Of a stretch of DNA of 64,000 nt, positions 40,511 through 42,668 are shown in pieces (positions within the stretch are counted from its first letter, which is position 1; each line of letters begins with the position of its first letter). The notes below the pieces were generated by a model. That model was given only the letters and a program-made list of their open reading frames with translations, did no database searches and was not told the DNA's origin. The DNA lies in assembly GCA_903915535.1 (NCBI GenBank), contig CAIWTJ010000159.1:1-64000 (forward strand), read 5' to 3'. The DNA comes from Enhydrobacter aerosaccus. GTDB lineage: Bacteria; Pseudomonadota; Alphaproteobacteria; Reyranellales; Reyranellaceae. The position numbers and the translations under genes are program-made.

Positions 40511-40581
40511 TGGACGTTCCTCTTTACGTGGGGCGCGCTTCGTTGCACAAAAGGCGCGCCATTCCCGGGAGTATTAAAATC

Positions 40582-41523
40582 ATGGCCGCAGCGCGGATCA
40601 AAGGCGTTCTTTCGCCCGTCGTCACCCCCTTCAAGCGGGACCTGTCGCCAGACGTCGGCCGCTTCATCGCCCATTGCAAGTGGCTGATCAGCCAGGATTG
40701 CGGGCTGGCCATGTTCGGCACCAACTCCGAGGCCAACTCGATGTCGGCCGACGAGCGCATGACGCTCCTCGACAAGGTCGTCGCCGCGGGCGTGCCGACC
40801 GCACGCATGATGCCGGGCACCGGATCGTGCTCGATCAACGAGGCCGCCAAGGTGAGCGCGCATGCCACCAAGCATGGCGTCTCGGGCGTGCTGATGCTCC
40901 CGCCGTTCTACTACAAGGGCGTTCCGGAGGAGGGGCTGTTCCGCTTCTTCTCGGAGGTCGTGCAGCGCACGGGCGACGACAATCTCCGCGTCTATCTCTA
41001 TCACATCCCGCCGGTCTCGGCCGTGCCGATCACGCACAAGCTGGTCGAGCGGCTGATGAAGGCCTATCCGAAGCAGATCGCCGGCATGAAGGATTCGTCG
41101 GACGACTGGGCGCACACGAAGAGCATGATCGATGCCTTCGCCAAGGACGGCTTCGATGTCTTCTCCGGCAACGAGAAGCCGCTGATCGAGAACATCAAGG
41201 CGGGCGGCGCGGGCTGCATCAGCGCCACCGCGAACATCAACCCCGGCAAGATCGCGGAGACCTACAAGAAGTACGCGACGCCGGAAGGCGAGAAGCTGCA
41301 GGGCTGGATCAACGAAGTGCGCGGCGTCATGCAGGGCTACGTGATGATTCCGGGCCTGAAGTACTGCATCGCGCACTACGGTGCCGACTCGGCCTGGACG
41401 CCGGTGCGGCCGCCGCTGGTCGAGATCGACGAGAAGGCGGGCAAGGAAATGATCGCCAAACTCGACAAGCTCGGCTTCACCATGCCGGGCCTCGCGCAGG
41501 CGATGGCGGTTGCGGCCGAGTGA
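40582..41523 (+). CDS. DapA/NanA family aldolase or dehydratase
   Basis: A 313-residue class I Schiff-base TIM barrel. The catalytic Lys170 is in AGMKDSSDD and the tyrosine in VYLYHIPP, with GTNSEANSMS in the carboxylate-binding loop. The family cleaves or condenses pyruvate with aldehydes (dihydrodipicolinate, keto-deoxy sugar acids). Its position opposite an FAH gene supports a catabolic rather than lysine role. The ATG at 40582 has a GGGAG 12 bases upstream. A strong promoter begins one base after its stop codon. Confidence 0.84.
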   Translation: MAAARIKGVLSPVVTPFKRDLSPDVGRFIAHCKWLISQDCGLAMFGTNSEANSMSADERMTLLDKVVAAGVPTARMMPGTGSCSINEAAKVSAHATKHGVSGVLMLPPFYYKGVPEEGLFRFFSEVVQRTGDDNLRVYLYHIPPVSAVPITHKLVERLMKAYPKQIAGMKDSSDDWAHTKSMIDAFAKDGFDVFSGNEKPLIENIKAGGAGCISATANINPGKIAETYKKYATPEGEKLQGWINEVRGVMQGYVMIPGLKYCIAHYGADSAWTPVRPPLVEIDEKAGKEMIAKLDKLGFTMPGLAQAMAVAAE

Positions 41524-41553
41524 TTGACACTCGGCCTCTCGAGGCTCTATAAA
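41524..41553 (+). promoter_or_regulatory. Strong sigma-70-type promoter
   Basis: TTGACA at 41524-41529 and TATAAA at 41548-41553 are separated by 18 bases. The spacer holds an inverted repeat GCCTC-TC-GAGGC (41534-41545) that might be a regulator site. Transcription would be expected to start near 41560, which is the A of an ATG. It directly follows the aldolase stop and drives the leader RNA. Confidence 0.7.
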
Positions 41554-41554
41554 A

Positions 41555-41632
41555 TGGTCATGACCACGATGCTGCTCCAGAAGGGTTGGTATTTTACGTC
41601 GCTCACATAGGCGGCGCGCATGGTCATGACCA
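41555..41632. repeat. Two perfect 12-bp palindromes TGGTCATGACCA
   Basis: TGGTCATGACCA occurs at 41555-41566, over the predicted transcription start, and at 41621-41632, just before the terminator. The centres are 66 bases apart. As DNA it could be an operator pair. In RNA the second copy (UGGUCAU) can pair with the transcript's first bases (AUGACCA), hiding the leader start codon. Confidence 0.65.
41560..41610 (+). CDS. Leader peptide MTTMLLQKGWYFTSLT
   Basis: A 16-codon ORF from ATG at 41560 to TAG at 41608, with TGG-TAT-TTT (Trp, Tyr, Phe) at codons 10-12. The predicted transcription start coincides with the ATG, so the mRNA would be leaderless, as described for the rhizobial trpL leader. 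An in-frame ATG at 41554 overlaps the -10 region and cannot be transcribed from this promoter. A second ATG at 41569 is possible. It encodes no recognisable protein and is best read as a sensing ORF. Confidence 0.5.
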   Translation: MTTMLLQKGWYFTSLT

Positions 41633-41635
41633 AAC

Positions 41636-41668
41636 GAAGCCGCCGCATCCCGGCGGCTTCATTGTTTT
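41636..41668 (+). terminator. Intrinsic terminator before the GNAT genes
   Basis: GAAGCCGCCG (41636-41645) and CGGCGGCTTC (41651-41660) form a perfect 10-bp stem with a five-base loop, followed by ATTGTTTT. This is the best intrinsic terminator in the window. It is 47 bases upstream of the GNAT start, so transcription of the acetyltransferases must read through it or start after it. Confidence 0.8.
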
Positions 41669-41715
41669 AGGACTTCAGCCTCCGGGCAGCGGCGATACCG
41701 CAAACGGAGGATCTG

Positions 41716-42183
41716 ATGTCTATCATCGAAGCTGAAAGTACCAACGACCCGGTGGCCCTGCCGCCGCCGATCCGCGTGCGCCTCGCGGGGCCGCGCGATT
41801 GCGAGGCGCTGTGCGAACTGCTCGACCGGCCGGAATACGCCCAGGAGCAGGTGATGACGTGGCTGCAGACGCCGGGCACGACCTTGCTGGTCGCGCAAAG
41901 CGAGCTCGGCATCCTGGGCGTTGCCGTCCTGATGACGCGCATCATTCCGCGGGCGGATGCCGGCATGCACAAGGTGGTCGAGGTCGACAATCTCGTCGTA
42001 CGCGCCGACCAGCGCGGCAAGCGGATCGGGCGTCGCCTGCTGGCGGCGGTCGTCGAATGGTCACGCCAGCGCCGTGCCAGCCAGGTCGAGGTCTGCATCG
42101 GCGAGGTCAACCGCGACGCCAAGCGCTTCTACGAGAGCTTCGGCTTCGCGCACGCGGTGGATCGGCTGGTGCTGGCGGCATGA
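41716..42183 (+). CDS. GNAT family N-acetyltransferase, copy 1
   Basis: A 155-residue acetyltransferase. The acetyl-CoA loop is VVRADQRGKRIGRRLL (Q/R-x-x-G-x-G/A type) after KVVEVDNL, and the C-terminal VCIGEVNRDAKRFYESFGF completes the fold. ACGGAGG precedes the ATG at 41716. It lies downstream of the leader RNA and terminator, and its stop overlaps the start of a close paralogue (ATGA). The amine acetylated is unknown. A role in detoxification or aromatic compound response is speculative. Confidence 0.85.
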   Translation: MSIIEAESTNDPVALPPPIRVRLAGPRDCEALCELLDRPEYAQEQVMTWLQTPGTTLLVAQSELGILGVAVLMTRIIPRADAGMHKVVEVDNLVVRADQRGKRIGRRLLAAVVEWSRQRRASQVEVCIGEVNRDAKRFYESFGFAHAVDRLVLAA

Positions 42184-42668
42184 GCGGCACGGTCTCCTTC
42201 CGCGTGCGGCCGGCCAGCATGGGCGACTACGACGCTCTCTGCCCGCTGTTCGACGAGCTCGACGAGTTTCATCGCCGGGCGCGGCCGGAGATGTTCCAGC
42301 CGTTCGCGCCGCCGGCGCGGGCGCGCGAACAGGTCGCGCGATGGTTGGCCGACGCGGGCTCGACCGTGCTGGTGGCGGAGAACGGTGCGGGGCTGGTTGG
42401 ACTGGCGCTGTTGCTGACGCGACCGGCCTCGCCGTTTGCGGGCGCGGTGCCGCGCAAGGTGATCGAAATCGACAATCTCGTCGTGCGTGCCGACCAGCGC
42501 GGCCGGCGTATCGGCCGGAGGTTGCTATCTGAGTCGGTGGCCTGGGCTCGCCAGCGCGGCGCCACCCATGTCGAGGTGACGGTGCACGATTTCAACCAGG
42601 AGGCGGAGCGCTTCTACAGGGCCTTCGGCTTTGCGCGCTCGATGAACCGCCTGATGCTGGCGGCCTGA
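42180..42668 (+). CDS. GNAT family N-acetyltransferase, copy 2
   Basis: A 162-residue paralogue of the preceding gene. The acetyl-CoA segment IDNLVVRADQRGRRIGRRLL is almost identical, while the N-terminal substrate half (RPASMGDYDALCPLFDELDEFH) differs. It is translationally coupled to copy 1 by an ATGA overlap and converges on a hypothetical gene one base away. The pair may act as a heterodimer or on related amines, which is inference. Confidence 0.85.
   Translation: MSGTVSFRVRPASMGDYDALCPLFDELDEFHRRARPEMFQPFAPPARAREQVARWLADAGSTVLVAENGAGLVGLALLLTRPASPFAGAVPRKVIEIDNLVVRADQRGRRIGRRLLSESVAWARQRGATHVEVTVHDFNQEAERFYRAFGFARSMNRLMLAA

Follow-up and report, generated by a model that had tools for sequence, protein, structure and literature searches.

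A predicted leaderless attenuator with a conserved Tyr codon ahead of two acetyltransferase genes in Reyranellaceae

Organisation of the locus and its promoter

The window (the whole 64,000-nucleotide stretch of DNA that was analysed) forms a single contig of a genome of 5.8 Mb, the relatives of which go by the names Reyranella, Enhydrobacter aerosaccus and Vineibacter (family Reyranellaceae). A gene of the DHDPS family is followed by a promoter, a short ORF and two genes specifying GNAT-family acetyltransferases:

40528-41523, DHDPS-family gene, directly 5′ of the promoter
41524-41529, + strand, -35 box TTGACA, read directly; TTGAC conserved in homologues
41548-41553, + strand, -10 box TATAAA, after an 18-nt spacer
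41560-41610, + strand, leader ORF, 16 codons plus TAG, MTTMLLQKGWYFTSLT; length and stop conserved in homologues
41587-41595, + strand, control codons TGG TAT TTT (codons 10-12, Tyr being codon 11), invariant in 41/41 homologues
41716-42183, + strand, GNAT1, acetyltransferase without the HRxARP segment; PF00583 (Acetyltransf_1), E = 7.6e-13
42180-42668, + strand, GNAT2, acetyltransferase with the HRxARP segment; PF00583 (Acetyltransf_1), E = 6.4e-18

Most of these features had been pointed out in an earlier note, and direct reading bore it out: the TTGACA-N18-TATAAA sequence is present with an ATG six bases past the -10 hexamer, the 16-codon ORF does contain TGG TAT TTT consecutively, and the two acetyltransferase genes 3′ of the leader are indeed coupled, overlapping by ATGA and both belonging to Acetyltransf_1. 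The ORF specifies the leader peptide M T T M L L Q K G W Y F T S L T. Among 61 homologous copies, the TTGAC box lies exactly at -36 relative to the leader ATG in 50, and TATAAA is the most frequent -10 hexamer (28/61); the DNA flanking the TTGAC box is not conserved. Such a spacing, fixed with respect to the ATG within unconserved surroundings, is consistent with a leaderless mRNA, the RNA most likely starting at the A of the leader ATG. Leaderless mRNAs are frequent in alphaproteobacteria, with 375 described in Caulobacter (PMC4117421). A generic promoter scan of the window did not call the leader promoter, which was overlooked because TATAAA ends in A.

Both acetyltransferases are generic Acetyltransf_1 proteins that fall under every curated functional cut-off; when compared with antibiotic-modifying GNAT families (NCBIfam AAC, Sat and others), their best scores were far below the curated values. 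Searches of families and solved sequences, together with fold comparison, returned only generic relatives (BH1408, PaiA, AAC(3)-XI and SSAT) and no substrate assignment. The AlphaFold2 model of GNAT2 (pLDDT 87) has a plain GNAT fold; its closest structural neighbour is BH1408, a protein with no named function. The HRxARP segment is kept in GNAT2 and in the single-copy GNATs of most other genera and has been lost from GNAT1, which for this reason looks like a diverged duplicate. GNAT2 was absent from the search results in several genomes.

Conservation of the leader and its competing hairpins

A DNA search detected the element in 22 of the 25 genomes of the genus, and the three members lacking the leader (G005, G006 and G017) also lack the GNAT. 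When the GNAT was sought at the protein level it appeared in 69 of the 76 genomes of the order, and the WYF leader was present in all those with enough upstream sequence (67/67, five genera), the remaining two (L068 and L102) being cut by a contig end just upstream. Leader and gene are therefore kept or lost jointly. Decay of the WYF codons beside a surviving GNAT, which the earlier note had named as grounds for abandoning its reading, was not seen in any of the 67, and the pairings and the terminator are kept as well. In these 67 genomes the leader lies about 127-182 nt ahead of the GNAT match. A pattern scan of one genome per species (84,980 species) yielded 64 stretches; a GNAT lies downstream in every one with enough DNA after the leader (60/60), and the other four end ≤138 nt past the WYF codons. 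The tyrS, tyrA and class II DAHP synthase genes of Reyranella were examined and have no such leader, the GNATs being the sole leader target found in this organism. Reyranellaceae-type loci also occur in MAG records (L113, L150, L140 and L144) whose titles, Asaia bogorensis, Rhizobium sp. Q54 and Caenispirillum bisanense, are probably mis-assigned.

Leader conservation was counted on 41 non-redundant copies (set A2). The ORF has exactly 16 codons in 39 of them and 15 in the other two, this single codon being the sole indel; the stop codon is TAG in all 41, and W10, Y11, F12 and T13 do not vary. For Tyr, TAT and TAC are both used, a synonymous change. Constant length, WYFT, stop and synonymous change are together what a short, putatively translated ORF with control codons would present. 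At each of codons 2-9, by contrast, five to ten different residues are found, which argues against a peptide with a function of its own: such a peptide would be expected to conserve more, while a ribosome-stalling site requires only its control codons.

Downstream of the control codons, the RNA can form several hairpins:

41597-41603, + strand, protector arm CGTCGCT, pairing with 41610-41616; 96% of cells paired (41 homologues)
41610-41615, + strand, antiterminator 5′ arm GGCGGC, beginning inside the stop codon, pairing with 41639-41644; 99.6% of cells paired
41617-41636, + strand, upper part of the antiterminator hairpin, CG .. TGGTCATGACCA .. CG; one pair changed on both sides (9 cells)
41636-41669, + strand, intrinsic terminator, 10-bp stem plus T-rich tail; 99.5% of stem cells paired across homologues, both sides changed at two pairs
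41679-41710, + strand, second hairpin CCTCCG...CGGAGG, pairing the Shine-Dalgarno of GNAT1; predicted in homologues by folding

The terminator consists of GAAGCCGCCG-CATCC-CGGCGGCTTC (41636-41660) followed by ATTGTTTTA. Its 5′ arm (41639-41644, GCCGCC) is common to terminator and antiterminator, and GGCGGC has two alternatives: it can pair upstream, with the protector that lies over codons 13-15, or downstream, with the terminator 5′ arm. The three mutually exclusive pairings and the 10-bp terminator with its tail, as described in the earlier note, are all found, and in homologues both the WYF codons and the pairings are conserved. Every pair of the two main stems is kept in at least 39 of the 41 homologues; the protector hairpin has one C.C mismatch in 12/41. 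Slid versions of the structures paired far less well. Compensatory changes are scarce (three pairs in one structure alignment, one pair for the antiterminator) because the hairpin arms hardly vary.

When folded from position 41554, the leader RNA reached -56 kcal/mol (z = -6.2), a value matched by none of 200 shuffles; when folded from 41561, without the first bases, z was -3.1. In the window the fold is stabilised by the 12-bp palindrome TGGTCATGACCA, present at 41555-41566 and at 41621-41632. Among the species aligned, only that of the window has two full copies; the homologues retain the GGTCAT/GACC part of it. The three-way fold of the window was consequently rejected as a conserved core, since the palindrome pairing that closes it is peculiar to the window species. 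The hairpin over the Shine-Dalgarno was predicted in all 61 homologues folded. In the window it is closed in both folding states, and folding therefore gives no support to the possibility that antitermination opens it; its role is unaccounted for by the attenuation model.

The effect of a ribosome was modelled on the 41 homologues by folding only the RNA outside a masked stretch, the masked lengths being the standard toeprint distances. For a ribosome placed on the Trp, Tyr or Phe codon, the mean predicted probability of the antiterminator was 0.96, 0.97 and 0.98, respectively (41/41 sequences). For one placed on the stop codon, the antiterminator arm was masked and the terminator was predicted with a probability of 1.0. 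In the model without a ribosome, two early folds were balanced (0.49 versus 0.43) and the full RNA terminated. By computation, the position of the ribosome would thus select between the folds, which is textbook attenuation logic. On the full-length RNA the terminator beats the antiterminator thermodynamically, so that switching would depend on the order of co-transcriptional folding.

Related leaders in other alphaproteobacteria

A covariance model, R1, built solely from the GNAT leaders of Reyranellaceae, was used to search 385 genomes of the class. Its nine best matches outside Reyranellaceae had E-values from 1e-17 to 7e-5, weaker matches turning to noise. Ordered by E-value, their targets were S4, S4, GNAT, TyrS, TyrA, TyrA, S4, DAHP synthase type I and DAHP synthase type II, that is, TyrS-like S4 proteins (L172, L173 and L178), a GNAT (L174), TyrS (L175), TyrA (L176 and L177) and the two DAHP synthase types (I, L179; II, L180). 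The unbiased evidence is that of the R1 search: a further model, R2, was trained on its own matches, and recovery of these is no evidence. Later cases outside the family were obtained once the model or search had been tuned on previous matches, and weigh less; among them are again TyrS, TyrA, S4, GNAT and both types of DAHP synthase. They comprise the order of G444, where the leader precedes S4, GNAT or TyrS genes in 13/18 genomes; a third family with a GNAT under an LYF leader (L203/L238); and another order with the leader before TyrA (L250), TyrS (L251) and DAHP synthase (L253). In this last order, the leader at L252 contains SYFWLYL and precedes a GNAT of a different subfamily, a sequence observation that suggests acetyltransferases to have come under aromatic leaders more than once. 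A leader was also looked for at the GNAT relatives of family f124 (L204 and L205), and none was found.

Tyr is the only residue common to the leaders inside and outside Reyranellaceae, usually as codon 11 of 16. In leaders from other families, W or F is replaced (VYF, LYF, LYY, AYF, NSYY) and Tyr is always kept; leaders with all three aromatics stand before DAHP synthases. An automatic complementarity test of the outside leaders found a clear antiterminator pairing at L174, L241, L175, L179 and L248 (shuffle P ≤ 0.02) and none at L238, L247, L249 and L180; at L247 and L249 the terminator was called before the stop codon, which is a failure of detection. Aromatic-codon attenuators are probable before tyrS, tyrA and both classes of DAHP synthase in several alphaproteobacterial families, the candidate loci being tyrS (L175, L247, L251), tyrA-like genes (L176, L177, L250) and DAHP synthases (L179, L180, L240, L253). 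With tyrS, tyrA and DAHP synthase as targets, these related leaders precede genes for the metabolism or charging of the amino acid that they would sense.

Proposed mechanism, sensed signal and known systems

The element is best read as a leaderless ribosome-mediated transcription attenuator, a reading to which the conservation and folding results lend a probability of roughly 85%. From the computed conservation and hairpin competition we infer ribosome stalling, read-through and the sensed amino acid as follows. RNA polymerase would initiate at the ATG of the 16-codon ORF. When charged tRNA-Tyr (perhaps also tRNA-Phe or tRNA-Trp) is ample, the ribosome would reach the TAG and cover GGCGGC, allowing the terminator to form and leaving an RNA of ~110 nt. 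A ribosome stalled at codons 10-12 would instead cover the protector arm, leaving GGCGGC free to pair with the terminator 5′ arm; transcription would then proceed and both GNATs would be made. Weighing against this reading are the scarcity of compensatory changes, the mismatch in the protector hairpin, the thermodynamic advantage of the terminator on the complete RNA, the lack of a leader at tyrS, tyrA and class II DAHP synthase of Reyranella, and the extra hairpin over the Shine-Dalgarno.

The attenuator proposed in the earlier note is thus backed by conservation and folding, while its sensing of Trp-Tyr-Phe is narrowed to Tyr, possibly with Phe or Trp, since Tyr is what the outside leaders share. 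Judged by these relatives, which do not share Trp, the leader is not of the trp type. With tyrS and tyrA among the targets and Tyr universal, the most economical candidate for the signal is tRNA-Tyr charging, and tyrosine, perhaps together with Phe and Trp, is fairly likely to be what is sensed; in Reyranellaceae, and where the target is a DAHP synthase, Phe and Trp may be co-signals. That all three aromatics (or Phe or Trp) are sensed equally has a smaller though real chance of being right. None of W, Y and F varies within Reyranellaceae, all-aromatic leaders precede the enzymes of the common first step, and a stall at any of the three codons is predicted to free the antiterminator. Against this, W or F is lost outside the family and Tyr never is, tyrS and tyrA figure as targets, and a ribosome with Trp in its A site would mask only ~2/7 of the protector bases, on a geometry taken from general toeprint distances.

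The other explanations differ from tyrosine attenuation more deeply. Since the GNAT fold is common to aminoglycoside and streptothricin acetyltransferases, the leader might be a sensor of translation inhibitors, in which antibiotic-stalled ribosomes open the acetyltransferase genes for resistance, in the manner of attenuators inducible by antibiotics; this is improbable given that neither GNAT reaches a resistance-family cut-off, that the control codons are amino-acid specific and that the same leader design stands before tyrS, tyrA and DAHP synthase. Similarly low odds apply to the idea that the terminated RNA of ~110 nt works chiefly as an sRNA in trans, or that the leader peptide acts in trans. 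The strong promoter and terminator and the precedent of rnTrpL/peTrpL in Sinorhizobium (PMC7298713) speak for it, but the leader is always found 128-183 nt ahead of the same gene and the peptide is unconserved in its N-terminal half; a trans role in addition to attenuation is conceivable. A chance combination of promoter-like and terminator-like sequences with an accidental ORF can practically be dismissed: short ORFs and GC-rich hairpins arise often and the promoter scan was negative, but conservation over five genera, with recurrence before tyrosine genes, already refutes it.

The element shares with the classical attenuators (trp, pheA, his and leu type) a short leader ORF with control codons, a mutually exclusive antiterminator and terminator, and a stop codon sited so that the terminating ribosome masks the antiterminator. 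It differs from them in being, as predicted, leaderless, in having a single Trp-Tyr-Phe triplet rather than a run of one codon, and in having an acetyltransferase pair as its target. Closer in some respects is trpL of Sinorhizobium meliloti (rnTrpL/peTrpL, PMC7298713), which is also alphaproteobacterial, whose RNA begins with the leader ATG (as predicted here) and whose attenuator RNA ends at the terminator. That leader, however, has a run of Trp codons and trpE(G) as its target, the traits of the trpL type; neither is found at the window leader, which has one Trp codon, no trp gene and Tyr as the conserved residue of its wider class. The uORFC-8-2 motif upstream of cysS in Rhodobacterales, a predicted ribosome-mediated attenuator (PMC8632094), is likewise an attenuator of an aminoacyl-tRNA synthetase gene in alphaproteobacteria with tandem control codons in a short uORF; it differs in its Cys codons, its cysS target and the orders in which it occurs. 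An Rfam search of the region returned nothing at the gathering score; the best weak match, RF01859 Phe_leader, scored 18.7 bits (E = 0.64; gathering score 55) and was rejected as a family to which the element might belong. No description of such a leader class was found in the open-access literature, subscription journals lying outside that search. The leader, a candidate undescribed attenuator in the earlier note, thus seems to be undescribed, and looks like a new member of ribosome-mediated attenuation with an unexpected target, in soil and water bacteria.

If the attenuator reading is correct, ribosome-mediated attenuation in Alphaproteobacteria would gain tyrosine as a sensed amino acid, in a compact, sequence-recognisable class linking tyrS, tyrA, DAHP synthase, TyrS-like S4 proteins and GNATs; the two anonymous acetyltransferases would become candidates with a testable signal, shortage of charged tRNA-Tyr. 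A more speculative and rather unlikely extension, made by analogy, is a stress circuit of tRNA-Tyr charging, in which one 16-codon Tyr leader would govern tyrS, tyrA, the S4 protein and the GNATs, with the GNAT acetylating a blocker of charging; a TyrRS-directed inhibitor of the aminoacyl-adenylate type, a tyrosine analogue or D-tyrosine might be such a blocker. GNATs of the MccE/RimL type acetylate aminoacyl-adenylates and can detoxify them (PMC3817062); by analogy, their shared fold would give a GNAT a role under synthetase inhibition, although analogy is the only link of the window GNATs to them, with no family match above the cut-off. In such a circuit, too little charged tRNA-Tyr would in itself serve as the alarm and turn detoxification on.

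The S4-domain proteins encoded under the same Tyr leader are stand-alone proteins of ~87-120 aa that resemble the C-terminal domain of TyrS. They occur in the families f94 and f157, at L172, L173, L178, L236, L242-L246, L248 and L249.
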